DNA from: Stenotrophomonas sp. 610A2
GTDB taxonomy: Bacteria > Pseudomonadota > Gammaproteobacteria > Xanthomonadales > Xanthomonadaceae
Length of the DNA: 64,000 bases
NCBI RefSeq assembly: GCF_030549615.1
Contig: NZ_CP130832.1
Coordinates: 4,092,001-4,156,000 of the forward strand
Reading direction: 5' to 3'
The notes under the pieces are model-generated. The model was not told the origin of the DNA, made no database searches, and worked only from the letters and a program-made list of their open reading frames with translations. Position numbers and translations under genes: made by a program. Every line of letters starts with the position of its first letter. Positions within the stretch are counted from its first letter, which is position 1. Below are positions 42,470 through 59,776 of this stretch, piece by piece.

Positions 42470-44643
42470 GAAGCCGTACCTCCTTGTTGCAGGCGGTGCA
42501 GATGTGCGTAATAGCCATCGGGTCGCGCCAACAGGGCTTCATGGTTGCCGGCTTCGACGATCTCCCCCTTCTCCACCACCACGATGCGGTTGGCATGACG
42601 CACGGTGGAGAGGCGATGAGCAATGATGAGCACCGTGCGTCCCTTGCAGATGGCGCGCATGTTGGACATGACCGCGTGTTCGGACTCGTAGTCCAACGCA
42701 CTGGTCGCCTCATCGAAGATCAGAATACGGGGATCGGCGATAAGCGCACGGGCGATGGCGACACGTTGACGTTGGCCGCCGGAAAGCCCCGCACCATGCT
42801 CGCCCACCTTGGTGTCGTAGCCCTCGGGCAGTTCCATGATGAAATCGTGCGCACCGGCCAGCTTAGCGGCGCGAATAACCCGTTCCAACGGCATGCCCGG
42901 CTCGGCCAGCGCAATGTTCTCACGGACGGATCGGTTGAACAGGAAGTTCTCCTGCAACACCACGCCCAACTGGCGGCGCAGCCAGGCCGGATCGGCCACG
43001 GCTAGGTCCTGCCCGTCTACTAATACCCGGCCGCGCTCGGGGGCGTACAGCCGCTGCACCAACTTGGTTAGGGTGCTCTTACCGGATCCGGAGCGACCAA
43101 CGATGCCGATGACCTCACCCGCCTGAATGTCCAGATCAATGCTACGCAGAATCTCGGGAGCATCGGGTCGGTACCGAAAAGTAACCCGCTCGAAAGTTAC
43201 CCGCCCGTGGATGGGCGGCAATGCCAAACGACTCCCTGGAACTTCGGTCTTGGTGTTGAGGATGTCACCAAGGCGTTCTACCGAGATTCCCACTTGCTGA
43301 AAGTCCTGCCAGAGCTGTGCCAGCCGGATAATCGGTGCGGCGACTTGCCCTGACAGCATGTTGAAAGCGATCAACTGGCCAAGTGTTAGTTTGTTCTCGA
43401 TGACCAGCTTGGCACCGAAGTACAGGATGGCGACACTGACCACCTTCTGGGTCAACTGCACGCCTTGCTGACCCAGTGTTGCGATCTTGGTGACGCGGAA
43501 GCTGGCGCCCACGTACCCGGCCAGTTGGTTGTCCCAGGTACGGATCATGCGCGGCGAAACCGCCGTGGCCTTGACCGTGCCGATACCACTGACCGTTTCC
43601 ACCAGGAAAGCTTGGTTGTCGGCACCGCGTGCGAACTTCTCGTCCAGGCGCTTACGCAGTACTGGCGTGATGCCGCCGGAGATTAGTGCATAGACGGGGA
43701 GAGACAGCACCACGACCAAGGTCAGCCAGCCGCTGTACCAGAACATCACCGCAAGGAAGACCACAGTGAACAGCAGGTCAAGCACCGAGGTCAGTGCCTG
43801 CCCGGTCAAGAACTGGCGGATGTTCTCCAACTCGCGCACGCGGGCGATGGTGTCGCCTACACGCCGCGATTCGAAGTAGGCCAACGGTAGGTTGAGCACA
43901 TGGCGGAACAAACGCGCGCCCAATTCCACATCGATCTTGCTGGTGGTGTGGGCGAACACATAAGTACGCAGGCCATTCATCACCACGTCGAACACTGCCA
44001 TTGCGATCAGACCGATGGCGATAACGTGCAAGGTAGTCATCGCGTGATGCACCAGCACCTTGTCCATCACAACCTGGTAGAACAACGGCGTGACCAGCGC
44101 GAAAAGCTGTATGAACAGTGAGACGACGAAAACCTCGGTCAACAGCTTGCGGTACTTGACCACAGCCGGGACGAACCAAGTGAAATCGAACTTGGCCAGC
44201 TCCCCGAGCACTGACGCGCGCGAGGCAACCTGCAACAGACGCCCGGCATAGCGAGCTTCGAACTCGTCACGCGTCAACGCTTTTGGACGGCGTTCGACCA
44301 GATCGTGGATCAGTATCTGCGTGCCATCGTGCGAGACTTTGGCCACCACGAAGGGCGGTTCTTCCTCCATGCCCCACGCGAGTGCCGGGAGGTTGGTGCT
44401 CCCGATACGGGAAGCCGGGTGAAGATGGAATTTGGCCTTTAAGCCAAGCTGTTTGGCCGCCAGCAGCAGGGTGCTCTCGTCGAACGCCTCACCGCCACGA
44501 CCAAAATCATGGGTTAACTGCTGCTCGTCGGCTGCTATACCGTGGAACTGTGCCAGCAGCACCAGTCCACGCAGACCATAGTCAGGCTGTGGCCCATGCA
44601 GCGGCAAAGGCACGACCACATTGGGCGAACCATCGACATCCAT
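42466..44643 (-). CDS. HlyB-type ABC exporter with C39-like domain
   Basis: A 725-residue exporter. Residues 1-140 form a C39-like domain in which the catalytic Cys is replaced ([16 protein letters not shown]), as in HlyB, so it should bind substrate rather than cleave a leader. Six membrane helices lie at about 160-440. The nucleotide-binding domain has Walker [10 protein letters not shown], signature [15 protein letters not shown] and Walker [13 protein letters not shown], all intact. GGAAG precedes the ATG. Its likely cargo is the RTX-like protein downstream, now truncated. Confidence 0.94.
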
Positions 44644-44649: not shown

Positions 44650-45433
44650 CTTCCCAGCCCAATCAGGACAATGAAGATGTCGAATCTATACGCTTGAGGA
44701 AAGACAAGCGCAAGTCGAAGAATTGACAAGCACATCATCGGTAGCGCGAGGCAACTGTGTAACCCCATGAAATATAAATAGAATATTCCTATCCGTGATG
44801 AGTATCACGCATGAAAGACGCGCCACTGTGGCTCGCCGCCGATTACCGGTGCATTTCAAATGGGAGAACCTGATGCTGTACGGTTCCGAGGAATTCACTT
44901 GAGGCCCGTGTTTCAGGGCGAATTCCGGCAAAGACCAATGCTCATTTAGGTAGGGTTTGAACCATCCGCTCAGCGCTCGATCTCTTCATCCATAACTTCG
45001 CTCATCGGAGTCCTCTGCAGGGTTGTAACACCCGAACGGTTTTCAGTTGGTCATTCCTCCGAGCCTGACCTCAGGGCATTGGTGCTCGGCTAACGCCAGC
45101 TACGACGAAGTCCTGCGCAGCACCTGACGGTTTGCACCGCACCCCTCCTGAAACCTTCCCCCACGGCCCGCTTACGCACCTCAAACCTCGCCTCTTCGGC
45201 GGTTGGCAGAGCGCCGACTAGCAACTCGGACGTCTTTGGATCTCGTCAAATTAACCCCGTAGACCGCCTCACAGCGCTCCGCTTACACGGCATCTACATC
45301 GTGGTTGTCCCGATCTGAAACACTTCTCTCAAGTGGGTGGCGAGTCCGAAGTCTTCGGAAGTTTCGGCAAAAACTTCGCAAGAAATCGGCGTAGGTGGCA
45401 GCCTTACCTCCGACCTCACTGGACGCTTTATCC
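44650..45433. other. intergenic region between the secretion locus and the mobile segment
   Basis: About 780 bases. A 34-codon frame at 44,798-44,902 (MSITHERRATVARRRLPVHF) has some protein character but no ribosome site. Short direct repeats of AGTCTTCGGAAGTTTCGG/AAAACTTCG type occur near 45,350-45,385, just ahead of the AlpA-like gene. Nothing else is identified; this may hold the left boundary of the element. Confidence 0.35.
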
Positions 45434-45784
45434 ATGAACTACCGTGAACCCTGCCATTCATCGAACGACTGCGATTCGGCTCCGACCGCCAAGTCCGAGC
45501 TGTGGGCTGCCGTCCCAGCTATCCGTGACACCGGCCCCCTGCGTCTGGCCACGACGTCGCTGGCAAGCAGTCAGCGATATGCCGAGGCGAACCATGCGTT
45601 TGATGCTGACTCCTTCCTGCGCATGAAAGTCGTGATTGAGCTGAGCGGCTTGAGCCGCTCCACGATCTACAGTTTCATCAAGGACGGCAAGTTCCCCGCG
45701 CAGTGCAAGATTGGTGAGCGTGCAGTCGGCTGGCGTGCAAGCGAAATCTTCGAATGGATCTCCACGCGCGCACGTGGCGTGTAG
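45434..45784 (+). CDS. AlpA family phage/satellite regulatory protein
   Basis: A 116-residue protein. The last 60 residues are a MerR-like AlpA helix-turn-helix: LRMKVVIELSGLSRSTIYSF, then IKDGKFPAQCKIGERAVGWR and ASEIFEWISTRARG. The N-terminal half is low-complexity; the start chosen (ATG at 45434) is uncertain, and an internal start near 45,624 would give only the domain. AlpA proteins switch on excision or replication genes of prophages and satellites. It precedes the replication-like genes. Confidence 0.8.
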   Translation: MNYREPCHSSNDCDSAPTAKSELWAAVPAIRDTGPLRLATTSLASSQRYAEANHAFDADSFLRMKVVIELSGLSRSTIYSFIKDGKFPAQCKIGERAVGWRASEIFEWISTRARGV

Positions 45785-46198: not shown

Positions 46199-47506
46199 AT
46201 GAACAAGCTCAATGATGACTGTTGCATTTACCCCGGTATGCCCGACCGCGAACCAGCTGAACTCTCGGAAAAAAACAAACGCGCCGTGCGCCACCCTGCT
46301 CAGCCGATGCTGCAGATGGCTGCGCGACGGGCTGCGCAGGTTGAAGCGCTGCACAATCGCTTCTCGGATGGCTACATGGTCCAGGAAGGCCCCAACCATG
46401 CGACTTTCCGCGGTGAGACAGCGGATACCAAGTTGAATCACCTGTTCCGCCTATTGGAGCTCTCCCATGAATACGTCATGGGTAGCACTACGACGGCATG
46501 CCGACGGATACGGACGAGAGCTATCAGCAGTCGCACGCTGCACTACTGCTACCGGCTCAGCACGGTTGGCAAGGAAGTTCTCGCATGCTGCAAGATCTAC
46601 GTTCTGCGCACAGATGAGCTGAAGGACTGGACCACCAAGCACAGCAACGACCTCTTTAGCCCGACCATGACCGTAATGCTGCGCGCGATGGGCCGCTGGG
46701 CCAAGGACGCCTGCCACTGGCTGAACAAGAACGACGATGTGATCGAGGGCAGCTTAGATATGGATGCCGTCACCGCTCTCGAGCGCATTCTCGCCTTCGT
46801 GCGTCGGGCTTGCGGCACTTGGCGCTTCAAGAACGCCCGAGCCGAGTACGAGCGCCAAGCTGGCAGTAACTTTGCCAGCGCTTGCAAACTGATCCTCGAC
46901 TGCTTCGCCCGTCCCACAACACGTTTACTGATCTTGCGTGTGGACCTGTATCTGCGCAAGGGCGAGCACCTTTGGGATATGGCCAAGGAGGGTGATCGAG
47001 CAGCAGCTCGCTTCCGCCGCCTACTGTATGACGGCAAGCGCTTCCCCAAAGCCATGAGCTGGATCTGCAAGTGCGTGCACGGCATTGACCGAGGCCTTCA
47101 CTGGCATTGGATGGTGATTCTGGACGGCAGCCCGCACCGCAACGCCATGGACCTGACGAAGCAGCTGGGCCTCTTGTGGCAGCAGATCGTTGGCCCGGAC
47201 CGAGGTAGCTACTTCAACTGTTACGTGCGCCGAAACCATCACAAGTTCAACGGCCTGGGTCTGGTGCATGCCACGGAAGCCCATAAGCTCTTGGACATAC
47301 GTCATGCCATCTATTACATGACCAAGCGCGATTGCGTGCTCAGAACCACGACGGACAAGCACCAGGACTTCCGGCGCAGCAAACCGCGCTGGAAGCCCGT
47401 CTCCACGCGCGGTGCGCCCCGCAAGAACGAGGATGACCTCGACTTGGCTCGACGCCTTTTAGGGGGGCAGCGTAGTGAGTACCCGAAAGACTATGTTTTG
47501 CCTTGA
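46199..47506 (+). CDS. inovirus Gp2 / YagK-YfjJ-like replication protein
   Basis: A 435-residue protein. The core LLILRVDLYLRKG, GIDRGLHWHWMVILDG and LLDIRHAIYYMTKRDCVLRT matches the inovirus-type Gp2 (YagK/YfjJ) family found in filamentous phages, satellites and integrated elements. HWHW resembles the metal-binding HUH of rolling-circle initiators. The likely role is replication initiation for the element. Its stop lies just ahead of the next start, so the two genes are coupled. Confidence 0.75.
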   Translation: MNKLNDDCCIYPGMPDREPAELSEKNKRAVRHPAQPMLQMAARRAAQVEALHNRFSDGYMVQEGPNHATFRGETADTKLNHLFRLLELSHEYVMGSTTTACRRIRTRAISSRTLHYCYRLSTVGKEVLACCKIYVLRTDELKDWTTKHSNDLFSPTMTVMLRAMGRWAKDACHWLNKNDDVIEGSLDMDAVTALERILAFVRRACGTWRFKNARAEYERQAGSNFASACKLILDCFARPTTRLLILRVDLYLRKGEHLWDMAKEGDRAAARFRRLLYDGKRFPKAMSWICKCVHGIDRGLHWHWMVILDGSPHRNAMDLTKQLGLLWQQIVGPDRGSYFNCYVRRNHHKFNGLGLVHATEAHKLLDIRHAIYYMTKRDCVLRTTTDKHQDFRRSKPRWKPVSTRGAPRKNEDDLDLARRLLGGQRSEYPKDYVLP

Positions 47507-47511
47507 GCCCC

Positions 47512-48831
47512 ATGCCCACCATGCTGCCCTACCCGAATACCTCAACCCACTGCCCCATTGATGCACTGCCGGATCTGCTTTACGACGCAGCCTTTGCAGT
47601 GCACGCAATGGATGACGAAATTCCCGCCCCGATTCTCTTGCTTGAAGCAGTTGCAGCCAGCGCTGCGGCGGTACACCTGAGCTACGACGTGCGTGGCTTA
47701 GACGAAAGAACCATGCCGACGACCATCAATACATTGCTACTGGCCCCGAGCGGCCATGGCAAGGGCTCGTCGTATCAGGCCTTTTTTATGCCCTTTATGC
47801 AGTTTGAAGGGCATTCTGACCTTGACCCTATGCAGCAGGACGTGACGTACCGAGCACTGATGGAAACGCTCAACGGCCGTCTCCGAGGCACCAACATCCA
47901 ACATGAAGACGGAGTCGACTTCCTGCAGAGCGACCTGTTCAAGAAGCACCTCGGGAAACTGACGCAGCTGTACAGCGGAATCATTCAGCTTAGCCACAAA
48001 GTGCACCGAACTGAGTTGATTGCCATGTACGCACGTTGCTCTCTTGGATTTCGTTCACAGCAGGACATCTTCTACCCAACCCTTAGGAAGCCCTTGGACG
48101 TCAGCTACGCTCAGGGACTCTGGCCGCGAACGATTGCTGTTCAGTGGCTTCCCGGAGACGGCATCTGGAGGCCTGCATATCTCCCAACTTCGGAGGACGG
48201 CCTGATCCGCCTCCGTGGCCGAATCGTGGAACTTCTGGAGCGCGCAGCTGAGCTAAGCACTGACACCAACGGCGCTCGACAGTGCATACAGTTGGACCGC
48301 CGGGCCGACGCCTTTATGAGAGAGCTCAAGTACCGCCTGAAGGACTGGAGGGAACATGACTACCAGGATGTCCGCGAGGCGGCGTCCCGAGCTTGGGAAA
48401 ACACTCTGCGGCTTGCCGCTGTGTTTCATGTCATCTGCAACCAAGATGGGGATATCAGCTTGGATTTCGCACAACGCGCCTGGGAGATAGTGCAATGGTC
48501 CCTGACTCAGCATCGCATTATCTTGACCGAGATCAGATACGTTCCAACGAAAACCCAAATCGTTCAGACGAAGCTCCTGCTGAAGAAGACTAAGGTACCG
48601 CGCCCCGCGCAGAACGCACGTGAACTGATCCAATGCTTGGAGCATCTCTGCCGCAGCCGCTGCATCTCTTGGGTCAACAGAGATGAGGTCGAGTTTCTCG
48701 CCAACTTGACCCCAAAGCAGGTCCCAGCGGCATGGAAATGGCTGACGGTTGAGGGGGCAGTCGAGTTCCGTGGTAGTGGCGGCCGGACACTTGTTCGCAA
48801 GTTATGGACTTCCAATTCTGGAGCGCTCTGA
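47512..48831 (+). CDS. DUF3987-like ATPase/primase-associated protein
   Basis: A 439-residue protein following the Gp2-like gene almost without a gap. A Walker A-like loop (LLLAPSGHGKGSS) lies near residue 75. The later part (REAASRAWENTLRLAAVFHVICN, FAQRAWEIVQWSLTQH) matches the closing helices of DUF3987 proteins, which accompany replication genes of phages and satellites. The final GK(S/T) residue of the P-loop is G-S here, so nucleotide binding is uncertain. I preferred the ATG at 47512 to an overlapping TTG. Confidence 0.7.
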   Translation: MPTMLPYPNTSTHCPIDALPDLLYDAAFAVHAMDDEIPAPILLLEAVAASAAAVHLSYDVRGLDERTMPTTINTLLLAPSGHGKGSSYQAFFMPFMQFEGHSDLDPMQQDVTYRALMETLNGRLRGTNIQHEDGVDFLQSDLFKKHLGKLTQLYSGIIQLSHKVHRTELIAMYARCSLGFRSQQDIFYPTLRKPLDVSYAQGLWPRTIAVQWLPGDGIWRPAYLPTSEDGLIRLRGRIVELLERAAELSTDTNGARQCIQLDRRADAFMRELKYRLKDWREHDYQDVREAASRAWENTLRLAAVFHVICNQDGDISLDFAQRAWEIVQWSLTQHRIILTEIRYVPTKTQIVQTKLLLKKTKVPRPAQNARELIQCLEHLCRSRCISWVNRDEVEFLANLTPKQVPAAWKWLTVEGAVEFRGSGGRTLVRKLWTSNSGAL

Positions 48832-48937: not shown

Positions 48938-50128
48938 CTACGAAGGCTGTTTTTTGAAAAACCTGACACTTCTGGGCTCCCTACCCGTCTCCTCCATCCA
49001 TTTTCGCAACATGTTGTTCTGCTCTTCCGTAACTACAGACCCACTAATCAGCCGAACTAGATCACCAATCTCTAGGCCGGCAAATCCGTTCAACACAAAG
49101 TTCTTGGCAAGGTCGATGATCATGAAATCGCTACCTTTCCTCCGCCCGGACCACCAGTCGGCGATGGCCAAAGTCATGGAGAGCCCCTCGCTCGCAAATG
49201 GAAAATCATAATCCTCCCTATGCGCTCGAAATCCTTTTATATCATCAAGATCCATCGGATCCCTCTGAGGACCACCCTGAGAACGATTCACCTCCTTCCT
49301 AATAAACTTGAAAGTAGTCTCCAGCGTAGAATGCGTGAAAACCCCCCTCTTATTACACCGCCGCTTTAGCCACCCGCAAACCTGATCTCTATTCAACTCA
49401 AAATTTGAACCAGAGCCATTGAATCGATGTGCAGCCTGAAACATCCAGTAAATCCCAGGCATTCTTAATCCAAATTCATAAGGAAAATCTGCAAGGTCAT
49501 CTACAGGCTTTAGGAACTGATCAAGACCTGAGACATCCTTAACATCCAGAAAGAGATCTTCCTTGTGGACCTTCATTTCCTTCGCAACATAGTACCGCCG
49601 ATACGCGGGATCCTTCAGTAAGCCGAGAGCATTACCACTGCCCCATGCCTCGCGATCAATGAGAAATGCCTCATAAAACCCCTCACGCTTCAAGCCATGA
49701 ATGCGATCTATGACCCGTGAAGATTTCCTTTGCCCCCGCGCCTTGGGGCGATTGTCCTGATCGATAGACAGGCCGAATTCGCAGAACTGTGGAGACTCGC
49801 ACAAACCAGAATGCCCTAACTCCTCCAGTGAGCTATCGTCCAACCGGAGGTACATCAAATCATCACTAAACCCATGCATATCAAAGCTCAGAGCGTTAGC
49901 CGAGCGGTTCTCAAGATCGTCCAACGCACCGTCGCCCGGGCTCCCAGGGGGTGACAGCAGATACCCATTGAAAGATCGATAGACCTTGTAGCGAACTTGA
50001 TCGACCTTGAGGTAGATCGGAATTTTCCTACTGAGGAGAAGGGAGAGTGGCTGGTCCTCATCAGGAAAGTAGCGCTTCCGCGCTTCATCAAAAGGGAGCA
50101 TTCGCCCTTCACCGCTAATTGCCTCCAT
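48938..50128 (-). CDS. large hypothetical protein of the mobile segment
   Basis: A 396-residue protein from an ATG at 50128 with GGAGG upstream. It opens LPFDEARKRYFPDEDQPLSL, then LLSRKIPIYLKVDQVRYKVY. Charged alpha/beta sequence follows, and a C-terminal helical part (FTHSTLETTFKFIRKEVNRS). It has no signal peptide, no membrane segment and no clear catalytic motif. Base composition is lower in GC than the flanking chromosome. It faces the replication genes and may be a cargo or regulatory gene of the element. Confidence 0.6.
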   Translation of the reverse strand: MEAISGEGRMLPFDEARKRYFPDEDQPLSLLLSRKIPIYLKVDQVRYKVYRSFNGYLLSPPGSPGDGALDDLENRSANALSFDMHGFSDDLMYLRLDDSSLEELGHSGLCESPQFCEFGLSIDQDNRPKARGQRKSSRVIDRIHGLKREGFYEAFLIDREAWGSGNALGLLKDPAYRRYYVAKEMKVHKEDLFLDVKDVSGLDQFLKPVDDLADFPYEFGLRMPGIYWMFQAAHRFNGSGSNFELNRDQVCGWLKRRCNKRGVFTHSTLETTFKFIRKEVNRSQGGPQRDPMDLDDIKGFRAHREDYDFPFASEGLSMTLAIADWWSGRRKGSDFMIIDLAKNFVLNGFAGLEIGDLVRLISGSVVTEEQNNMLRKWMEETGREPRSVRFFKKQPS

Positions 50129-50676
50129 CACCGAACATCCTCCAAGCCCACACATCCGAGCTGGTGAGTATCAAAGATATCTGGTGTTTTCGGAACACGA
50201 AAAGCGCAGGCCTCCGCGCACCAAGCCTGCGAGCAAGGCGAGAGTTTCGCATGGGGAGGGCGGATCAAGCGGGCTCGCTACGACCGGCACGCTGCCGGCA
50301 AAGCCATCCGGGCTTTCCCGCTCGATCCCCCCATGAAGTCGTATATCGATAGGCAGGCGTTGAAACCTACCTGCATGCCTAGAGAACGTCAAAGTTCGCC
50401 TGCCTACTACTCACCTGTGTCCAGAACACCGCCACAGCCGCGCAGCCAAACGCTTGATTGAGTTCAACCCCGCCTTCGTTGATCGCTCCGGGGCGCTCTG
50501 ACCTCAGTTGTCCGCACAATAAAGGCCGCCCCCTGAGGGGCGGCCTTTCTCTATTCTGGCGACCACCAGGGCGGAGCGGCATCGGACTTTCACACAGAAC
50601 GAGCATGCACACGATGCGACAATGCCCCCGTTGGGGCAGAATCGCTCGGTTTTCCAGGTTCCTGGTCCATCCCTAG
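50129..50676. other. intergenic region with one terminator
   Basis: About 550 bases between the hypothetical protein and the relaxase. Apart from the terminator at 50,521 and short GC-rich direct repeats, nothing is identified. Confidence 0.4.
50521..50550. terminator. strong hairpin terminator
   Basis: AAAGGCCGCCCC, loop CTGA, GGGGCGGCCTTT, then CTCTATT. It lies downstream of the relaxase gene and can also act for rightward transcription. Confidence 0.85.
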
Positions 50677-51402
50677 TCAAAGCTCGCCTCGCCCGCGCAT
50701 GACTTGCCTGGCGATCACGTAGGCTAGCCGCTCGTCGCCGGACATCCCCTGAATCCGGAATGCTCCCAAGTGACGCTCAGCCTGACGTTCGATGCCCTGC
50801 TCTTTCAGTGTCCGGTGATCAACACGCTCCGCAATGCCATTGCGTTCCAAGTGCTCGTTGATGATCTTCGCAACCATGTAACGGCTTTCAATCACGCTCT
50901 CACTGACCTGCACGTTGGTTCTTCCGCACGCATCCTTCCTGCGTCCGCCCGCTTCGGGTCTGTCAGGGTTGTACCTGCGGAACATCTGCGACGCCGGTCG
51001 ATCGATCCCATCCGGCATGCGATCTGAAATCATCAAGTGCAGGTGCAAGTTGATCCCCCCTTCGAGGGATGCCTCGGGTGCATGGACCGCGAACTGATAG
51101 GGCTTCGTACCTGCCAGGTAACAAATGAGATCCTGCACTAGGTCCCTCGACCCGCTGCCGACAAGCTCATTTGGGAGCGCAATGATGAACTCCCTGTACG
51201 CGACACCATTCATGCGCTCGTGTGCATCCGCTGCGGCCCAGAACGCTCGAGCATTACCCTCTGCCCAAGAAGGTAGGTTCCCGCACCCAACGTCGATCAA
51301 GTCTTCCCGTGACCGATACCTTCCTTCGCGGCGTATGTAGTCACTATGCCCTACGGCTTTACCCTTGGCGCCAGTCTTTAGCTGTAAATGGAAGATCTTC
51401 AT
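50677..51402 (-). CDS. MobA/MobL-type relaxase (RSF1010-like)
   Basis: A 241-residue relaxase domain. The candidate catalytic Tyr22 lies in HSDYIRREGRY. The metal-binding His lie in FAVHAPEASLEGGINLHLHL (H107, H120, H122). The line DRMPDGIDRPASQMFRRYNP and the ending VDHRTLKEQGIERQAERHLG also match MobA of IncQ plasmids such as RSF1010, where the corresponding motif is ADYIQREGKY. The MobA primase part is absent, so this is the relaxase domain alone. It would nick at the oriT-like site about 95 bases upstream and lead transfer with a helper conjugation system. Confidence 0.9.
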   Translation of the reverse strand: MKIFHLQLKTGAKGKAVGHSDYIRREGRYRSREDLIDVGCGNLPSWAEGNARAFWAAADAHERMNGVAYREFIIALPNELVGSGSRDLVQDLICYLAGTKPYQFAVHAPEASLEGGINLHLHLMISDRMPDGIDRPASQMFRRYNPDRPEAGGRRKDACGRTNVQVSESVIESRYMVAKIINEHLERNGIAERVDHRTLKEQGIERQAERHLGAFRIQGMSGDERLAYVIARQVMRGRGEL

Positions 51403-51429
51403 GGTTAACCTCTATGTCGGGAATGAAAA

Positions 51430-51455
51430 AGGCCAGTGACGTTGGTCACTGGCCT
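51430..51455. promoter_or_regulatory. perfect 11-base inverted repeat upstream of the relaxase
   Basis: AGGCCAGTGAC, loop GTTG, GTCACTGGCCT, lying 28 bases upstream of the relaxase start and 40 bases from the nic-like core. It may be part of oriT (protein binding) or an attenuating hairpin. Confidence 0.6.
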
Positions 51456-51494
51456 CTGTGGGGTGGCTTGAAAGCTACTTAGCCTGATGGTTTT

Positions 51495-51517
51495 GGAGAA
51501 ACGGTAAGTGCGCGCTC
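51495..51517. other. oriT nic region, RSF1010/IncQ-like
   Basis: GAGAAACGGTAAGTGCGCGC followed by TC. The RSF1010/R1162 nic region reads GAGAAACCGGTAAGTGCGCC-CTC as I recall it, so the match is almost base for base, with one deletion and one change. It lies just upstream of a relaxase of the same family. The long inverted repeat that normally precedes the core in RSF1010 is not obvious here. Confidence 0.7.
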
Positions 51518-51654
51518 TGCATTCCCCCCTCCCTTCTATTGCATGTAGTGCACGTCATTGGGGGTAGTCATGTAAGTACCAGTAGCCGGCTTCTCTCATA
51601 CCTTATGCACCTAGGAGTAAGAAACTACTCACCCTGCTCCGAGCAGTAGTTCAA

Positions 51655-52278
51655 TCAGTACGCCGCACTGACAGGCTTAGCCTCAATCAACTTCCCGTTA
51701 TGAATAACGTAGTTCACATTCTTCTCCACAGAGGGACAGCAGGTAGCATCACCCGGTCCTTGGACCAGTATCTTCATGACAACCATTCCGCCCTGCACTG
51801 CGAACTCCTGAACTCCCTCCCCATACCCCGACACAGGCAATGAGTCTGCATACGTCAAACCATTACCTTCTTTGAGGAAGACCGCCAGGTGCGTGGCGTA
51901 AGCGTTACCGCCATCAGTGGCCTGCAGTACGAACAGCACGGCCTTGTCACTGACACCGTCGCCATTGAGGTCACCCTCTGCGAAGCGCCTAGCTTCGACG
52001 TCTTCCTCTGACTGATTGAAGATGAAAGCATCTCGAGCCAGTGCTTCATTGATGACACTCTCCACCGGAGCAGCTGCAGAGGGCTCTGCTATGATCTGCG
52101 GCTCTGCTTGCGCAGGTGCGCAGCTAACCGCTTCTGCCTGCACGGGCGTCAAACCCGCCGGCACTTCGCATCCAGCAAGGTTGATGTCACCTGCCTGGGT
52201 GAGGGTCGATTCCTTCTTGCAGCCCACCAGCGCCAGGACGGCCCACATGGCGCCTACCAACATACCTACCTTCTTCAT
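51655..52278 (-). CDS. lipoprotein with a DxNxDG calcium-loop-like motif
   Basis: A 207-residue protein with a lipoprotein signal (MLVGAMWAVLALVGCKK). It has an Ala/Pro/Glu-rich linker and then a domain with FAEGDLNGDGVSDKAVLFVL, resembling FG-GAP/VCBS or EF-like calcium loops. The end is beta-rich, with a CC pair in DATCCPSVEK. AGGAG lies near the start. It is part of a same-strand run of five genes. Function unknown. Confidence 0.7.
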   Translation of the reverse strand: MKKVGMLVGAMWAVLALVGCKKESTLTQAGDINLAGCEVPAGLTPVQAEAVSCAPAQAEPQIIAEPSAAAPVESVINEALARDAFIFNQSEEDVEARRFAEGDLNGDGVSDKAVLFVLQATDGGNAYATHLAVFLKEGNGLTYADSLPVSGYGEGVQEFAVQGGMVVMKILVQGPGDATCCPSVEKNVNYVIHNGKLIEAKPVSAAY

Positions 52279-52323
52279 CGTCTCTCCTGAGATTCTTTGG
52301 CAAAAATCAAAACACGCGCACGC

Positions 52324-52349
52324 AGCGGGCGTGCATCGGCACGCCCGCT
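52324..52349. terminator. hairpin between lipoprotein genes
   Basis: AGCGGGCGTGC, loop ATCG, GCACGCCCGCT. It lies between the 207-residue and 317-residue lipoprotein genes and has only a modest T tail, so it may attenuate rather than end transcription. Confidence 0.6.
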
Positions 52350-52368
52350 ATGTACCCTCTTTACCCCG

Positions 52369-53322
52369 TCAGTTCCTTTTGTCCGATCCGTCACAGACCC
52401 AGCAGTCCGGATCGAGTCCGCGAGCGATCTTGTCGGCCCGGATGCTCTCCTGCTCCGCCTGGTACTTCGCTTCGCGCTGGGCTGGCGTCAGCAGGCGTAC
52501 TGCGTTGTATCGTTTCTCCGCCTCTGTAAGCAGAACTTCCTGCTTGGGCGTCAGAGTGAAATCATTACTTTCCGAGATCGAACGATGGAGCGCCCACATC
52601 TCCGGTTCCGTCAGGTATTCAGTACCGTCTTGCAGATAGTGGGTCTGTGAGACCAGCTTTCCACCCTCGTACAGGCCCCGCTCCGAGACGGCTCCGTTCT
52701 CCTCCCAGTAGGCTTCCCACAGCCCTACAGGCACGCTGCCTTTGAAGTTGGCCTTTACCTTGACCTGACCATTCAGGTAGTAGCTGATCGCTTCTCCTTC
52801 CAGACCGTTGTTCACAGCCGTGGCCTGGTAGGAGAGTTGTCCAGGCTTCTCGGCGAAGTAGATCTTGATCGGCCCTTCCACGCGCCCGTTCTGCATCGTC
52901 AGGATGACGCCAGGACTGCCCGTTTTTGTGTGGAACACGGTCTCCCCATCCAGACCGCCGTCGGTCCGCTTACCTTCGTAGGCGACAACCTGTGACTGCG
53001 GATAGCGGCAGGTGTACTTGCCGCCTACCAATCCTTCTTCCACATCCACATCGCAGACATAGTTCAAGTTACCCAGCAGTGCGGTCATGCTGGTGGCCTG
53101 ATTGGTGTTCAGGTTCTGAAGGATGGTCCTTAGAGAGCCCAGGAGCGGTTCGAGCTGCTTGTGCGGCACACCGGTAACCCGTCCATCAAAGGGTTCATTG
53201 GAGCCGGCTTCGTAGATTTTGCCGTTACTCAGCTCTGCGTTGCGCCAGTCCAGGACTGGCTTGCTGCAACCCCCAAGAAGAAGCGCAGCCAGCATGGCTG
53301 CAACGTAGTTGATGCGTTTCAT
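52369..53322 (-). CDS. lipoprotein with MORN/YwqK-like repeats
   Basis: A 317-residue protein. The ATG at 53322 has AAGGA upstream and gives a clean lipoprotein signal (MKRINYVAAMLAALLLGGCS). The middle has repeated turn-forming units (GLDGETVFHTKTGS, GRVEGPIKIYF, GLEGEAISYYLNGQVKVKA, VGLWEAYWEENG) typical of YwqK/MORN-like proteins. A charged helix and a final CWVCDGSDKRN follow. YwqK-like proteins occur as antitoxins or immunity proteins, but no cognate toxin is recognised next to it. Confidence 0.7.
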   Translation of the reverse strand: MKRINYVAAMLAALLLGGCSKPVLDWRNAELSNGKIYEAGSNEPFDGRVTGVPHKQLEPLLGSLRTILQNLNTNQATSMTALLGNLNYVCDVDVEEGLVGGKYTCRYPQSQVVAYEGKRTDGGLDGETVFHTKTGSPGVILTMQNGRVEGPIKIYFAEKPGQLSYQATAVNNGLEGEAISYYLNGQVKVKANFKGSVPVGLWEAYWEENGAVSERGLYEGGKLVSQTHYLQDGTEYLTEPEMWALHRSISESNDFTLTPKQEVLLTEAEKRYNAVRLLTPAQREAKYQAEQESIRADKIARGLDPDCWVCDGSDKRN

Positions 53323-53425
53323 GAAATTCCTTGTATGTATTGGTTGAACGGCCAACGTTAGGCCACCAGGGTTAACCAGCGTCCTTGTCGGCACGCTATT
53401 TCTTGAACATGGCGCCATGGGTGCG

Positions 53426-53695
53426 TCAGCGGTTTCGACACTGACCCGCTGCTACAAAGAGCCGGTCGGAAAGATCAGGTGGCGGGGTGCTCTGCTTCTC
53501 GATAGCCAGCAACCCCTGTTCCCCGTAGTGTTCCTGCAACTTGTCAAAGGCACATTTACAGCTGGATTTCGGTGCCCCACCGGCCACACAGTTATCGACG
53601 AATTGACCACGCAACTTGTCCAGCTCGCTGCTGCAGGCACTGAGTGCCAGCACGACGATCACCATTGGGAGAAGTGCTCGTTTCCGAAGAGTCAT
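53426..53695 (-). CDS. small Cys-rich lipoprotein
   Basis: An 89-residue protein with a lipoprotein signal (ALLPMVIVVLALSACSS). The mature part holds three further Cys in VDNCVAGGAPKSSCKCAFDK and one near the C-terminus (AGQCRNR). The pattern resembles small periplasmic proteins with two disulfides. An AGAGG site precedes the ATG. The start is 2 bases past the stop of the upstream membrane-protein gene, so translation is coupled. Confidence 0.7.
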   Translation of the reverse strand: MTLRKRALLPMVIVVLALSACSSELDKLRGQFVDNCVAGGAPKSSCKCAFDKLQEHYGEQGLLAIEKQSTPPPDLSDRLFVAAGQCRNR

Positions 53696-53697
53696 GT

Positions 53698-53913
53698 CTA
53701 TCGCCTCTTCACCAGGACAAGCAGGGCGAAGATCACCACGATCCAGACCACACCGCCGATCAGCTTTCCGAATGACGGGAAGACCACTACGGGCCAGACC
53801 AGGCCCTGCCCGAGGTTGTAGAAGAACCCCTTGTAGGCATAACGTCCCCAGATATCGAAACATATGGCCGCGATCAGCACGGTCACGCCGTATAGGCCTA
53901 TCAGGTACTTCAT
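53698..53913 (-). CDS. small membrane protein
   Basis: A 71-residue protein with two membrane helices (KYLIGLYGVTVLIAAICF and LIGGVVWIVVIFALLVLV) joined by an aromatic loop (RYAYKGFFYNLGQGLVW). AGGGG precedes the ATG at 53913. It ends in KRR, suggesting a cytoplasmic C-terminus. It lies between the DnaJ-like gene (22-base gap) and the small lipoprotein gene. Function unknown. Confidence 0.7.
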   Translation of the reverse strand: MKYLIGLYGVTVLIAAICFDIWGRYAYKGFFYNLGQGLVWPVVVFPSFGKLIGGVVWIVVIFALLVLVKRR

Positions 53914-53935
53914 GTAATTCCCCTGTTGGTTGAGA

Positions 53936-54622
53936 TCAGTTGGCTTCTTGCAAGTAATGGCTGACGGCGCTGAACAGCCGTCGCAGGTCATCGGCGTTGG
54001 GAACACTCAATGTGATGAAGGGCTCGCCATGGATCCGGATGTGCGCCCCCTGGGCGGTGATCTCCGTCAGACAACCCAGTAACCGGATCTCAGCCTGCTC
54101 GAACTTGGCCTTGCGCCGAATCTGGGTTTCGGTAATCAGTACGCCCTCGCTGGCACCGCCGAACACGGTGTCGTCGATGAGCACGACAACGTCCTGGGCC
54201 CGCAGCCTCTCTCCGTAGCTGTCCAGAGCGCCCAGGAGCTTCTTCCTGGGGATGTGCGGAGCCACGAACACGCGTTCGAAGGGCTCGTTACTGAACTCCA
54301 GCCCTTCTAGTGCTTCTCGGAGTGAGCGGAGCGGTGGAGGCTCTGGGGCCGTGGCTCGCTCCGTCCGGGGGCCTGGATCAGCCGGCTTCGCCGACGCTTG
54401 CGTACGGTCGAAGCGCTCGCGTTGGTCCGGGTCCTTGAGGACCGAATATGCCCTGTTGACCGCCTGCATCTTGGCCGTCGCCCATGCGACGGCGGCCTCG
54501 TCCCCTGCCTCATATCGGTCCGGGTGGTACTGGCTCCGTCGGCCTTTGTAGGCCAGCTCAATTTCCCAGAGCGGCGCCTCGGGGCGGACCCCGAGGACTT
54601 CGTAGTGGTTTTCATCCGCCAT
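53936..54622 (-). CDS. J-domain protein with C-terminal PH/YokE-like domain
   Basis: A 228-residue DnaJ-like protein. Residues 5-72 are a J domain with the HPD motif at 33-35 (YHPDRYEAG) and YSVLKDPDQRERFD. There is no Gly/Phe region or zinc finger. After a Pro-rich linker, the last 110 residues (VVVLIDDTVFGGASEGVLIT, then ALIR-type strands) resemble the YokE/PH-like modules of stress proteins. It probably recruits DnaK to a specialised client. It is the first gene of the five-gene leftward run. Confidence 0.8.
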   Translation of the reverse strand: MADENHYEVLGVRPEAPLWEIELAYKGRRSQYHPDRYEAGDEAAVAWATAKMQAVNRAYSVLKDPDQRERFDRTQASAKPADPGPRTERATAPEPPPLRSLREALEGLEFSNEPFERVFVAPHIPRKKLLGALDSYGERLRAQDVVVLIDDTVFGGASEGVLITETQIRRKAKFEQAEIRLLGCLTEITAQGAHIRIHGEPFITLSVPNADDLRRLFSAVSHYLQEAN

Positions 54623-54784
54623 CAGGCCCTCTCCTGAGGATGAGCCATCGATGTGCCTCCATTCGTTGTGCCGGCTATTTCCATGGCCATAGCTCTCCCA
54701 CTTCTTCCTTCCTCAACATGACCGCTCGATTCCCCCACAACGCAGTAGCGAACACAGAGCTAAGTTCAAGGCTTGCAATAAACT

Positions 54785-54797
54785 TACGTGATACGTA
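54785..54797. promoter_or_regulatory. candidate XRE operator
   Basis: TACGTGATACGTA is a perfect 5-3-5 palindrome located between the divergent J-domain and XRE genes, 67 bases upstream of the XRE start. Autoregulation is inferred. Confidence 0.5.
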
Positions 54798-54863
54798 GAG
54801 TCTACCCGGGGCGTAGATCATCCGTCATCCTGTTGGTATGACTACATCGGTCACCTCCTGCTA

Positions 54864-55247
54864 ATGGCCGGCCCTGCCCTCGAACCCCGGGGCGTAGTGG
54901 CTGCGCGCCTGCGCCAAGCCCGACTGCTTCGAGGGCTTAGCCAACGCGAAGTCGGAGTTCGAATGGGACTTGATAAGGACACTGCCTCGGCACGCATAAG
55001 CCGCTACGAGAGCGAGTCCATGGCCATAAGCTTGGAATCACTATTTTCGTTGGCTGACGCTCTTCAAGTGCCGGCCGCGTATTTGCTGGCGTCATCGGCA
55101 GCTATGGCAGACGCTATCCTTTTGATAGGTGATGAAAGCGAAGTACAGCAGGCTCGTCTCGCTCAGGCCTTGGCCGCTCTTGCTAGCCTTCCAGCAGTAC
55201 GCCGGAAGGCACTACTCGAAGAGATCTTGGGTAAGCCGGGCATCTAG
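54864..55247 (+). CDS. XRE family transcriptional regulator
   Basis: A 127-residue protein. The helix-turn-helix covers residues 12-70: ARLRQARLLRGLSQREVGVR, then MGLDKDTASARISRYESES and ISLESLFSLADALQVPAAYL. A C-terminal helical part (EVQQARLAQALAALASLPAV) probably dimerises. It is divergent from the lipoprotein/J-domain run and is a good candidate for its regulator. Its 3' end overlaps the convergent gene below by 36 bases. Confidence 0.88.
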   Translation: MAGPALEPRGVVAARLRQARLLRGLSQREVGVRMGLDKDTASARISRYESESMAISLESLFSLADALQVPAAYLLASSAAMADAILLIGDESEVQQARLAQALAALASLPAVRRKALLEEILGKPGI

Positions 55248-55454
55248 CCCTTCTTCTAGTTTCAGGGCCTTCACCAAGTATCGGCCTGCCATTCGCCGTA
55301 GACGTTCCGCAGCCTCTCTAGCCCGCGCCTTCGTGCGCCAGTTTCCGTCGGTAGCTGAGCGCTCTACCTCCCGTGCCTGTCGGTCTAGATCAGCCGCTTT
55401 GGCACGAGCTATTGCCGCCCTGGTCGATGCCCAGGACGTCTCCGTTTCCTTCAT
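55212..55454 (-). CDS. small basic/charged helical protein
   Basis: An 80-residue protein (MKETETSWASTRAAIARAKA onward) with a strong AGGAG site. Composition is Ala, Arg and Glu, giving long amphipathic helices (WRTKARAREAAERLRRMAGR). It overlaps the 3' end of the XRE gene on the other strand. It is 23 bases downstream of the RadC-like gene, so it is probably co-transcribed. No family recognised. Confidence 0.6.
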   Translation of the reverse strand: MKETETSWASTRAAIARAKAADLDRQAREVERSATDGNWRTKARAREAAERLRRMAGRYLVKALKLEEGLDARLTQDLFE

Positions 55455-55477
55455 GCTGTTCTCCTGGTATCCGGGCC

Positions 55478-55972
55478 TTATATCTGCCCGAGCTGAGCCA
55501 TCGAGGTACCTTGGCTTGCCGAAACCACAAGGTGATCGACGACCCTCACTTCCACCATCGCCAGGACCTCCTTCAACCGCTTGGTGATGGCTCGATCCGC
55601 TGCTGACGGCTCGCAATGCCCGCTAGGGTGGTTGTGAGCCAGTAGGACCGCTGCTGCGTTCAGGGCCAAGGCACGTTGGACGACAATCCGGGGATGGATC
55701 TCAGCACCATCTATCGAGCCTGAGAACAACCTTTCTACGGCGATCAGGCGGTTGCGGGCATCGAGGAACGCCACCTCGAAGTGCTCGCGGATCTCATTCC
55801 CAAGACGCAGGCGGAAGAACCTGCCGGCAACATCGGGATCTCCCAATAGAAGGCCACTGACCATTGCTCTGCTCTCAAGAATTTCCAATGCTTGAGCGAG
55901 GACGGAGCTGTCACGTTCGTTCAAACCGCGAGGTAGCTCTTCCAGGCGTTGCTTCTGCAGCGAGACATTCAT
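55478..55972 (-). CDS. RadC-like JAB domain protein
   Basis: A 164-residue protein carrying the RadC/JAMM metal-binding motif AHNHPSGHCEPSAAD. The N-terminal helical part is short compared with chromosomal RadC (about 220 residues), which fits the mobile-element type. The start ATG overlaps the stop of the DUF932 gene by four bases. RadC-like proteins on plasmids and islands are thought to be metalloproteases or nuclease-like, but the reaction is unproven. Confidence 0.88.
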   Translation of the reverse strand: MNVSLQKQRLEELPRGLNERDSSVLAQALEILESRAMVSGLLLGDPDVAGRFFRLRLGNEIREHFEVAFLDARNRLIAVERLFSGSIDGAEIHPRIVVQRALALNAAAVLLAHNHPSGHCEPSAADRAITKRLKEVLAMVEVRVVDHLVVSASQGTSMAQLGQI

Positions 55973-56925
55973 GCGGCTTCCCCTAGCAGTTCCTTCCAAG
56001 CCTTCTGCTTTACCAATGCCCCTTGGCCGAACCACGCAGCATCCAAGCGGTTCTCCGTACTCTGCGCCCGCCGATGATGGTCTACGAACTCGGTAATGCT
56101 GTTGAGCAAACCAAAAGCCGTGCCCTTGCTGGTCTTCAAGCTAGCTCCCCTACCCTGCCCGTCATACAGCGCCCGTACCTTGGCAACAGCCTGCTCATTC
56201 ACGACTGCCCTCCCATTCTGAGCAGCCGGATACGTGAGCAAATTCCGCAGCACCCCATCAACCGAATCAGGGTTCACAGGTGTCTCACAGAGAATCCGCA
56301 TCCGCTCCACGAAGCCGTGCCAACCCTCAACAGCAATACCTAACTGACTTTTGACCCTGTCAGCATCGAAGGCACTGCGGTGCGGGACCTTGATGGCTCC
56401 AGTTCGATCCCCAACAGCGATCTGCAGCGTGTTGTTACACACCACGCGAACTGAGGTGAACTGAGCGGTGGTAGCCAGCGTTCCGTCACAGGCCGTAGCC
56501 AGAAGAAGATAGCCATTTACCTGATCTTGGCCCTTTAAGGCCACACCCTGCCCAGTACGGGCCAACGCCCAGAACTTCCGCCCGCCGCGAAGCACGCCTG
56601 CCGTTTCCAGCTCGAAACCACTGTACCGCGTCAGGTCGCGGTAGAACTCAAGAATCTCCTGCGGCTGGACTACTTGATAGCGCTTGGACACCACGGCCAG
56701 CGGTCGCTTGGTGTCAGAGCGATAAAGCACCTTCTGCCCGGGGAATGCCCGAACCGGATACTGATCTTCAGCATCGGCGGCGAATCGCACTTCGGCTTCC
56801 TCCAAGGACCAGTTCATGCCGGCGCGCTCGCGCCATACTTCAATGGACTGCCCTGGATCCAGCTGGCTTCCGATGCCATGCCATGGGACTTGGCCTGCAT
56901 AGGCCATGGTTTCAACGTGATGCAT
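55969..56925 (-). CDS. DUF932 (phage/plasmid-like) protein
   Basis: A 318-residue protein of the DUF932 family common on plasmids, phages and islands. It starts MHHVETMAYAGQVPWHGIGS, and the central segment FTSVRVVCNNTLQIAVGD is characteristic. Its biochemical role is unknown. It is the first gene of a tight trio (DUF932, RadC-like, 80-residue protein). Confidence 0.9.
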   Translation of the reverse strand: MHHVETMAYAGQVPWHGIGSQLDPGQSIEVWRERAGMNWSLEEAEVRFAADAEDQYPVRAFPGQKVLYRSDTKRPLAVVSKRYQVVQPQEILEFYRDLTRYSGFELETAGVLRGGRKFWALARTGQGVALKGQDQVNGYLLLATACDGTLATTAQFTSVRVVCNNTLQIAVGDRTGAIKVPHRSAFDADRVKSQLGIAVEGWHGFVERMRILCETPVNPDSVDGVLRNLLTYPAAQNGRAVVNEQAVAKVRALYDGQGRGASLKTSKGTAFGLLNSITEFVDHHRRAQSTENRLDAAWFGQGALVKQKAWKELLGEAA

Positions 56926-56955
56926 CTCGGTCTCCTTTCTTAGACGGCATAACGC

Positions 56956-56983
56956 GCAAGGCCCGGACAGTGCCGGGCCTTGC
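56956..56983. terminator. 11-base perfect hairpin
   Basis: GCAAGGCCCGG, 6-base loop, CCGGGCCTTGC. It lies 31 bases upstream of the DUF932 gene and 22 bases downstream of the 39-residue gene, and could end transcription of the latter. Confidence 0.7.
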
Positions 56984-57004
56984 GGGTCTATCTAGATAGT
57001 TGGT

Positions 57005-57124
57005 TTAGTCGTAGGAATCCCGGCCGAATTGGTCGGGGCGGGTGAACGAACAACGGGCCACGGCCGACAAGATGGCCGCAGCCACAATGAAGACGCAGTA
57101 GAGGAACTCGGATTTATCTTTCAT
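57005..57124 (-). CDS. 39-residue small membrane protein
   Basis: A short frame with ATG at 57124 and TAA at 57005. It encodes MKDKSEFLYCVFIVAAAILS followed by AVARCSFTRPDQFGRD and a short tail: one hydrophobic helix and a polar C-terminus. The ribosome site is only GAG-like. It lies between the terminator at 56,956 and the resistance block, on the same strand as the DUF932 group. Real by composition and topology, but unproven. Confidence 0.45.
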   Translation of the reverse strand: MKDKSEFLYCVFIVAAAILSAVARCSFTRPDQFGRDSYD

Positions 57125-57338
57125 GCTTAGTACTCGAAGCGATACGCCAATGCGCGGCGCACACGCAAAGCAGGGGGATCCTGCTTCACTGTGGTACTAA
57201 GGGTCTGAAACAAGTTTCAATCAAAGACAGCATCTCGATGAGGCACAACATTCAAGCTCGACACGCCGAACGGCAACTCCCGGCCAGAAGCAGACGTTAG
57301 GTTGCGCTGCCAAAACGCGCCTCACCGAACTGGCGGCG

Positions 57339-58541
57339 TTACCACGTCATCGCCCAACCCGCCATGGCAGCCAGTAACACGACCAGGACCGGCGGAGCAC
57401 GCGCAACGACCAGCAGCCCGAATGCGACCAGTGCCATCGCGATATCCCATCGGTCATGGATCGCGCTCGTCCACACCGGGTCATACAACGCCGCCAGCAG
57501 GATGCCGACTATCCCGGCATTGACGCCTGCAATCGAAGCTTGGAGATCCTTGCGGTGGCGCAGGGACTCCCAGAACGGCAGCACCCCCACGAGCACAAGA
57601 AGGGCTGGCAGGAAAATGACCACCAGCAGTGCAAGGCCGCCTGCCCAGCCACCCAGCGGCCCCTCGGCCATAGCCCCCAGATACGCTGCAAAGGAGAAGA
57701 GAGGGCCCGGCACCGCCTGCGCCGCACCGTACCCGGCGAGGAGATCCGCCGTGCTCACGGTGCCGCTCTGGACGACCGCGGTCTGCAGCAACGGCAGCAC
57801 GACATGGCCGCCGCCGAAGACCAGGGCGCCAGCGCGGTACACACCCTCCAACAGCACGGCCAAGGGGGAGCCGCTAACCACCGCCCACACGGGCAGCAGA
57901 ACAAGCGGCAGCACCAGTAGCACCAGTGCCACTGTGCCGGTTCTTCGCGAGACGGGATAGCCGCCGTCTGATTGGCCGGAAGCAGGTTCGATCTTCAGCA
58001 TCCAGCGACCGAGCAGTCCGCTGAAGATGATCACCACGATCTGGCCGACGACCGAGGGTATGGACAAAGTCAACACAGCGGCAAAAAGCGCCATCCCTGC
58101 CCTCAGACGGTCCGGGCACAGGGATCGGGCCATTCCCCATACTGCTTGAGCCACCACAGCAACTGCCACGATCTTCAGGCCATGCAGCCAGCCGGATTCA
58201 ACGATGCCCTGGTATTTGGCAACCCCCAAAGCGAACAGGATCATCAGCACGGCCGAAGGCAGCGTAAAGCCAGCCCAAGCAGCCAACAGGCCAGACCAGC
58301 CAGCGCGGCGCAAGCCCAACGCCATCCCAACCTGGCTGCTGGCCGGGCCTGGCAGTAACTGGCACAGGGCCGCCAAATCAGAGTAGCTACGGTCCGTCAG
58401 CCAACGGCGGCGTTCGACGAACTCGAGGCGGAAGTAGCCCAGATGGGCGATCGGACCGCCGAACGACGTCAGCCCCAGCCGCAGGAATACCAGGAAGACG
58501 CGCCACGCGCTGTCGCTTGTTGTGGGATCGAGCGCCGACAT
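57339..58541 (-). CDS. chrA: chromate efflux transporter ChrA
   Basis: A 400-residue inner-membrane protein built of two homologous CHR halves. The first has FLRLGLTSFGGPIAHLGYFR and LCQLLPGPASSQVGMALGLR; the second has VYRAGALVFGGGHVVLPLLQ and GAAQAVPGPLFSFAAYLGAM. These paired F-G-G and P-G-P motifs define the CHR family that exports chromate. The length matches the long-chain form. No chrB regulator is present. It lies downstream of the glutaredoxin-type arsC with a 54-base gap and may share its transcript. Confidence 0.92.
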   Translation of the reverse strand: MSALDPTTSDSAWRVFLVFLRLGLTSFGGPIAHLGYFRLEFVERRRWLTDRSYSDLAALCQLLPGPASSQVGMALGLRRAGWSGLLAAWAGFTLPSAVLMILFALGVAKYQGIVESGWLHGLKIVAVAVVAQAVWGMARSLCPDRLRAGMALFAAVLTLSIPSVVGQIVVIIFSGLLGRWMLKIEPASGQSDGGYPVSRRTGTVALVLLVLPLVLLPVWAVVSGSPLAVLLEGVYRAGALVFGGGHVVLPLLQTAVVQSGTVSTADLLAGYGAAQAVPGPLFSFAAYLGAMAEGPLGGWAGGLALLVVIFLPALLVLVGVLPFWESLRHRKDLQASIAGVNAGIVGILLAALYDPVWTSAIHDRWDIAMALVAFGLLVVARAPPVLVVLLAAMAGWAMTW

Positions 58542-58595
58542 GGACCATGACCTCCTGTGGTTCTCAGCGGCGGCAAGCCCAGCCAGGCACTGGGA

Positions 58596-59015
58596 TCACG
58601 GCGTGGAGCTTCCGGCGTGCCCGGTCACCAGCTCTCCATCTTCCTTTCGGAACGGCCCGGGCAGCGGCGACAGGATCTCCAGCACCACTTCCGAAGGCCG
58701 GCACAGACGAGTACCCCTATCGGTTTGTACGAGAGGACGATTGATGAGTATCGGGTGCGCCAGCATCGCATCAAGCAGCGCGTCGTCGCTCAGTCCTGCG
58801 TCGCCTAGCCCGAGCGCTTCATACGGCGTCCCCTTCTGCCGGATGGCATCGCGCATGCTCAACCCCGCCGCCGTAATGAGCTCGACTAGGCGCGCACGGC
58901 TGGGTGGGTTGGCCAGGTAGTCGATCACTTCCGGCTCGATGCCGACGAAGCGAATCAGTGCCAAAGTATTGCGCGAAGTGCCGCAGTTGGGGTTGTGATA
59001 GATGACAGCGTTCAC
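58596..59015 (-). CDS. arsC: arsenate reductase, glutaredoxin-linked type
   Basis: A 139-residue enzyme of the ArsC/Spx fold that reduces arsenate to arsenite with glutathione and glutaredoxin. Active-site Cys11 lies in [12 protein letters not shown]. The R-P pair in [13 protein letters not shown], which binds the oxyanion, is intact. Its start overlaps the arsH stop by four bases, so the two are coupled. Confidence 0.93.
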
Positions 59016-59752: not shown

Positions 59753-59776
59753 GGGGGTTGTCCTGTCATTTTAATT

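Follow-up and report, generated by a model that had tools for sequence, protein, structure and literature searches.

Chromosomal islands that carry a relaxase but no transfer channel are common, and their movement is mostly guessed. In known mobilization systems, circle closure by the relaxase in the recipient cell depends on a hairpin beside the nick site (nic). The plasmid systems compared here are IncQ1, with RSF1010 and R1162, for which the RSF1010-like pSRC15 (L077) served as the comparison plasmid, and the small Col-type plasmids with a MOBQ relaxase, to which pSC101 belongs. The RSF1010 substrate is published as CAGTTTCTCGAAGAGAAACCGGTAAGTGCG/CCCTCCC (PMC4814116). Canonical integrative and mobilizable elements (IMEs), which have a relaxase and an oriT and no type IV secretion system (T4SS), had no representative among the proteobacterial IMEs described until then, according to a 2017 review (PMC5704250). 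For 14 S. maltophilia genomes, 21 predicted IMEs are given in a 2025 paper (PMC12607529), and in 2026 a MOBQ IME was called by ICEberg beside a tRNA-Ser in an S. maltophilia complex isolate, with no oriT described in the main text (PMC13310844). This IME-like region, GI_4 of isolate NG-SM01, resembles our locus in its published features: it has a MOBQ relaxase, phage-type integrases, a tRNA-Ser, att repeats and no T4SS. MOBQ IMEs in Stenotrophomonas are already published and the kind is known; our searches of the open-licence PMC literature turned up no account of an IncQ-like oriT in such islands, of the paired IncQ-type core, of the hairpin-less oriT or of the short-relaxase clade.

The DNA analysed here, hereafter the window, is a stretch of 64 kb (G000:C1:4092001-4156000) from the 4.68-Mb single-contig genome of Stenotrophomonas sp. 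610A2. It contains part of an island that, judging from its sequence, we read as an IME with a probability of about 0.8; its architecture and inferred life cycle are shared with the canonical IMEs as far as these are described in PMC5704250, and it is probably able to move to other cells by means of the conjugation machine of another element. With RSF1010 and R1162, compared via pSRC15, the window shares an HUH relaxase with a Tyr and three His, an AGAAAC-(C)GG-TAAGTGCG core whose end is some 112 nt away from the start of the relaxase (111 nt in the window, 112 nt in L077), and a nicked strand opposite to the relaxase strand, the orientation being the same in L077. It differs from the RSF1010 type in that its relaxase is only 41% identical to that of L077 and has no primase domain, no MobC was found, the distal arm of the inverted repeat is missing, and the element is integrated, with a tyrosine integrase. 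The Col-type plasmids (L073, typed ColE10, L075 and L078; MobA of 361-371 aa) have some of the closest plasmid relaxases (43-46% identity), belong to the plasmid group nearest the islands in the relaxase tree and share the TAAGTGCG core, but their core ends 64-65 nt from mobA and has a perfect inverted repeat; all are replicative plasmids, with a divergent gene annotated TraD in L075 and L078 and an unnamed gene with a TraD domain in L073.

The original prediction compared the relaxase of the window with the relaxase domain of IncQ MobA, which agrees with its match to MobA_MobL (PF03389, E 9e-20, Pfam scan) and with its sole match at E <=0.001 among PDB sequences, R1162 MobA (2ns6, E 6.1e-30, residues 3-159). 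In the alignment, Tyr22 and His107/120/122 correspond to Tyr25 and His112/120/122 of the RSF1010-like MobA, residue roles being taken from PMC6856555, and a MobA_MobL domain with the catalytic Tyr and His triad of a MOBQ relaxase is present. These four residues are aligned in 34/34 island loci, Glu74 is retained in 31/34 and Glu76 in 11/34, the window relaxase having Ile at the latter position. The NCBIfam MobQ equivalog model gave 57 of 200 bits, under the model cut-off. The enzyme stops at 241 aa, without the MobA-primase fusion. That the primase half of MobA is missing was also predicted; there is indeed no primase domain, but this is not a local loss because all 34 relaxases of the clade have 230-265 aa. 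Twelve of the 14 sampled plasmid relaxases have 293-450 aa and that of L077 has 709 aa; L083 is cut by its fetched stretch, and its annotated gene has about 996 aa.

Identity to the window relaxase is 84% for a second copy in the same genome (own copy 2), 95% for the copy in genome G052 and up to 46-49% for plasmid relaxases, and every one of the 1963 matching plasmid records is below 60%. In a tree of 34 island relaxases and 14 plasmid relaxases, the latter a sample of those 1963 records, the island enzymes lie on one side of a branch (99/99), and the deep order of the plasmid branches is unsure, with long branches for L086, L085, L083, L084 and L077. By sequence, the island relaxases are one clade of short enzymes with 34 loci.

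A nic core close to that of RSF1010 had been predicted about 95 bases upstream of the relaxase, and 94 nt separate the 17-nt core (51497-51513) from the relaxase ATG. By alignment to RSF1010, the predicted nick lies on the + strand between 51512 and 51513. Compared with the RSF1010 substrate, one C of CCGG is missing and CGCT replaces CCCT 3' of nic; the RSF1010-type nic core that characterises IncQ1/MOBQ1 mobilization is present. When C or G is allowed at one position, a 16-nt form of the core matches the 4.68-Mb genome exactly at only two sites, each upstream of a relaxase copy. At <=2 mismatches it has seven matches and a reversed control pattern also has seven, so only exact matches carry weight. 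The window scores 17/17, with 0/200 base shuffles as good. The core reaches >=14/17 in 15/15 loci (L005, from Coralloluteibacterium, and 14 loci from the Stenotrophomonas genus group) and >=13/17 in 19/20 further loci from the family search, 0/200 shuffles being as good in each case, and L097 has no core in the 211 nt available upstream. It is thus kept at 34/35 loci though the relaxases diverge down to 42% identity.

Alignment with the nic regions of IncQ plasmids, proposed as a check on the prediction, succeeds for the window and for the RSF1010-like L077 (0/200 shuffles as good) but does not extend to plasmids in general: only L086 (10/200) also stands out, and for the whole 17-nt core of the islands 22 to 188 of 200 shuffles score at least as well in 12/14 plasmid loci. 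Most of these loci, the Col-type ones included, have only the TAAGTGCGC part in common with the island core, and the distance from core end to relaxase start is 62-65 nt in six small plasmids (L073, L075, L076, L078, L079 and L081). Searching plasmids with the oriT-region DNA returned merely two weak Komagataeibacter matches. The sequence comparisons support the view that the window nic core matches the relaxase of its own element, as an IncQ/MOBQ1-like pair. Such a core might also have arisen by chance or be an operator with no role in nicking, since its function is read from sequence comparison; we regard this as scarcely credible, because the core lies 96-122 nt from the relaxase start in 34/35 related loci, other genera included, and has no further exact copy in the genome. 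Sequence-based pairing of enzyme and nick site is possible across 12 genera within a single family; it makes transfer directly testable and supplies a pattern with which the oriT of such islands can be searched for.

The relaxase and oriT sit in a chromosomal island, as predicted, but the island is larger than had been noted: the att repeat at its left end had been missed, and the integrase and tRNA-Met lie past the window. In the 19 kb fetched beyond it, a tyrosine integrase of 409 aa with Arm, central and catalytic domains adjoins tRNA-Met. The empty site occurs naturally in L044 (genome G076) and L046 (G052), in which the sequence left of 34586 continues directly into tRNA-Met. From the att repeats and the empty sites it follows that the island spans 34586 to about 79247. 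Its GC content is 58.2%, that of the left flank 61.5% and that of the right flank 63.3% (3.8 kb seen on the right). The integrase gene with site-specific integration between att repeats, and the element's own relaxase with an oriT assigned by homology and conservation, are features of an IME. Rfam and tRNA scans of the 64-kb window returned nothing, the phage collection gave no match, and the distal att of own copy 2, at tRNA-Thr, was not found. Just outside the left island end, at about 34230-34305, lies a repeat of 57-70 nt that looks like integron attC sites and recurs many times in this genome (for example in G000 at 4.028 and 4.388 Mb) and in others of the genus. The features are compiled in Table 1.

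Table 1. Features of the island and its mobilization module, in window positions.
Feature	Position	Strand	Remarks
att repeat ATGGTGGGCCCACCA, left island end	34586-34600	+	15 bp; partner is the tRNA-Met 3' end, 79233-79247 (L031, past the window)
Island part inside the window	34586-64000		island runs to ~79247, 44.7 kb, G000:C1:4126586-4171247
Cargo: type I secretion ABC transporter with C39 domain, HlyD, two ORFs without Pfam match	38902-44643	-	
AlpA-like regulator	45395-45784	+	PF05930; PHROG excisionase and transcriptional regulator
"Gp2", 435 aa	46199-47506	+	weak match to a PHROG of unknown function; no family in Pfam or NCBIfam
DUF3987 protein, 442 aa, shorter and divergent	47503-48831	+	other than the module's tail-to-tail copy
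405-aa protein	48938-50155	-	no family match in Pfam, NCBIfam, PHROGs and PADLOC searches
Conserved mobilization/backbone module	50434-57292 (start 50434-50447)		common to L018, L020 (G052) and L004; L004 from 50743
Remnant of the module's own DUF3987 gene, ~50 bp	50447-50501	+	intact in L018, L020
MOBQ relaxase, 241 aa	50677-51402	-	PF03389, PDB 2ns6 match, aligned catalytic residues
Terminator-like hairpin	51429-51456		lies between oriT and relaxase; 12 bp stem, followed by a T run on the strand of the relaxase
oriT nic core GAGAAACGGTAAGTGCGCGC	51496-51515	+	single copy; homology to RSF1010 and conservation
Lipoprotein-like ORF (by eye)	51655-52278	-	no Pfam match; module part in this clade
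MORN_2-like ORF	52369-53418	-	under Pfam cut-off
DnaJ-domain protein	53936-54622	-	partial PADLOC BnzA match
HTH regulator	54864-55247	+	Pfam scan
RadC-family protein	55478-56035	-	NCBIfam, under curated cut-offs
DUF932 protein	55969-56925	-	Pfam scan
Cargo: chromate transporter, FMN reductase (read as ArsH-like), SBF-family transporter (read as ArsB/Acr3-like)	57339-61702		

The conserved module, of about 6.9 kb, contains the relaxase, oriT, lipoprotein-like, MORN-like, DnaJ-like, RadC and DUF932 genes, and around the HTH gene it differs in L018 and L004. In L018 and L020 a DUF3987 gene of 488 and 487 aa (L020 E 4e-86) stands tail-to-tail with the relaxase. The Gp2 and DUF3987 replication genes of the window had been taken as part of a mosaic mobilisable element; this was not supported in that form, since the module starts at 50434-50447 with the remnant of its own DUF3987 gene, which places the AlpA/"Gp2"/DUF3987 block outside the relaxase module. 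Neither Pfam, NCBIfam nor PHROGs assigned "Gp2" to a named family. The window copy neighbours tRNA-Met, own copy 2 tRNA-Thr and the G052 copy tRNA-Arg, and the integrases of the three islands are 43-58% alike. With different tRNAs and such integrases beside relaxases that are 84% and 95% identical to that of the window, the mobilization module has been swapped between islands.

With regard to the cargo, the ORFs without Pfam match at 38902-40947 adjoin the type I secretion genes, and one has Asp/Gly-rich calcium-binding-like repeats (by eye); their sequence makes it possible that they are secreted cargo. In some relatives, the cargo by the relaxase includes type I restriction-modification genes, which lie on the oriT side of the relaxase in L005 (5-2392) and L021 (1941-9452), called by PADLOC in L021 and by clustering with L021 in L005. 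In the backbone of another related island (L025, 5205-7081), YqaJ exonuclease and Gp3-like genes are a possible recombination module.

The relaxase occurs in 13/91 genus genomes (E <=1e-40), in 20/297 family genomes and 12/54 genera (E <=1e-30), and in 2/369 class genomes with its own genome counted (E <=1e-40). Locus counts do not represent independent events because several loci are close kin; L007 (G076), whose upstream region is identical to that of L004, was left out of the later ones. The close relatives with names come from Stenotrophomonas. Names were listed for 120 of the 144 proteins; they include Stenotrophomonas and, as possible members of the same clade, Hylemonella, Paraburkholderia, Solimonas, Herbaspirillum and Variovorax. 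An integrase match (411-475 aa open frame, same contig, <=32 kb) accompanies the relaxase at 10/13 loci in the 12 genomes searched, with fragments alone in G089 and none on the contig in G061 and G021.

Mobilization by a helper had been predicted, and the genome, searched for VirB4 (PF03135), gave no match, together with a weak coupling-protein match at 1.608 Mb; judged by VirB4 alone, the element has no mating-pair formation genes of its own, as befits an IME, and with no transfer channel found a helper would be needed. VirB4 matches are present in 11/13 carrier genomes, a count that covers carriers alone and so indicates no association. No MobC or TraD gene was found near the relaxase, PF06412 matching in 3/13 carrier genomes, away from these relaxases, and PF05713 in 0/13; in the window's own genome PF06412 matches solely at 2.726 Mb and PF05713 nowhere. 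As neither model recognises the RSF1010-type MobC of L077, this absence rests mainly on the gene layout, with no divergent gene at oriT. A third, distant MOBQ-like relaxase of the same genome (L019, G000:C1:2725169-2726327; 34%, 722-aa open frame) has an adjoining TraD (PF06412) gene and is probably another mobile element.

From the observed parts, their order and homology, the conservation of the core, the att repeats and the empty sites, we infer the following route of movement. Acting on the 15-bp repeats, the tyrosine integrase would release the 44.7-kb island from its tRNA-Met site in circular form. The relaxase would bind the AGAAAC arm, cut the + strand at the predicted nick (TAAGTGCG/CGCT) and stay on the 5' end through Tyr22. 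The type IV secretion channel of a helper would draw the strand out, with the module backbone and the metal-resistance cargo first and the relaxase gene last, after which the relaxase would rejoin the ends and the integrase would insert the circle at a tRNA.

With its module truncated on the left, the window copy might be a decayed one: a former working IME would now be fixed in the chromosome, its relaxase and oriT readable but immobile. The DUF3987 gene truncated at 50447-50501 with the foreign AlpA/DUF3987 block adjoining, an ORF within the island (38089-38913) that resembles a transposase, of IS3 type by eye, and the lack of a VirB4 match all point in this direction, whereas the relaxase and integrase frames are open, the element has both att sites as well as the oriT core, and the module is 92% identical to that of G052 over 6.9 kb, the chromosomal flank at the tRNA-Met site being 88% identical; decay is therefore unlikely, although it deserves some weight. 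A working relaxase could also serve mainly as a rolling-circle initiator that sustains the excised circle instead of transferring it between cells. A single-domain HUH enzyme with no MobC found, in a clade where the helicase/primase-like DUF3987 gene is tail-to-tail with the relaxase in 11/13 loci (~16-20 kb in view; the two without it are the window and L022, and L025 is almost a copy of L027), would suit such a role. But membership of the sequence in the MobA/MobL family of relaxases, its alignment with R1162 MobA and a nic core of the kind found at conjugative MOBQ origins make this improbable.

Finally, the resemblance of the nic core to that of RSF1010 could mean that an IncQ-type plasmid has recombined into the chromosome. 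We consider this very improbable given that no primase is fused to the relaxase, the Pfam scan showed no plasmid initiator among 18 window proteins, the island relaxases branch apart from the 14 sampled plasmid ones, no plasmid record reaches 60% identity, and the element has tRNA att sites with an integrase. The IME reading is thus the one we prefer.

The oriT of the probable IME differs from that of the plasmids in one respect that the original prediction overlooked, its missing inverted repeat. Directly 5' of nic, the best inverted repeat of the window has 4/6 pairs, and 284/300 shuffles are as good. A 6/6 arm pair beside nic occurs in 10/11 plasmid loci versus 1/34 island loci (L099), the latter including the core-less L097 and the former omitting L080 (65 nt upstream) and L083 and L085 (no core recognised). 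Between oriT and the relaxase ATG, a hairpin with a T run, whose energy is below the lowest of 68 shuffles (-14.7), occurs in 31/34 loci, with 25 distinct stems among the 34; it is weaker at L022 and L100, and for L096 another helix was picked by the script, although a terminator-like one is readable by eye. From the folding, this hairpin may be a terminator or an attenuator.

A pre-start motif as a copy of the oriT core was rejected, 88-100% of control leaders scoring as high in the window clade. The tree, catalytic-residue, inverted-repeat, leader-motif, hairpin and pairing counts leave out L027, a near copy of L025, and the local and long-range pairing sets also L089 (relaxase identical to that of L005) and L097 (no core). 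In folding predictions the oriT arm pairs with a region some 90 nt distant, just before the relaxase start, 12/32 loci being at <=0.05 against 100 leaders of other genes (L024, L025, L026, L029, L030, L087, L091-L093, L095, L098 and L102, several of them close kin). This long-range pairing fails in the window clade (window fraction 0.78). A tentative and rather doubtful proposal from these folding models is that the clade of short MOBQ relaxases, best sampled in the Stenotrophomonas family, has lost the nic hairpin and may use another signal, namely pairing of the AGAAAC arm with the ribosome-binding region of the relaxase around the conserved hairpin, which would also shield the relaxase from cargo transcription. 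If a hairpin-less oriT works, one could learn from it how MOBQ relaxases terminate transfer when the usual inverted repeat is absent. Locally, the AGAAAC arm is paired with a probability >0.5 in 11/11 plasmid versus 7/32 island loci. The window is among these seven, its nic arm forming a weak 4-bp local hairpin (probability of pairing 0.64) that is retained in 3/4 members of its subclade.
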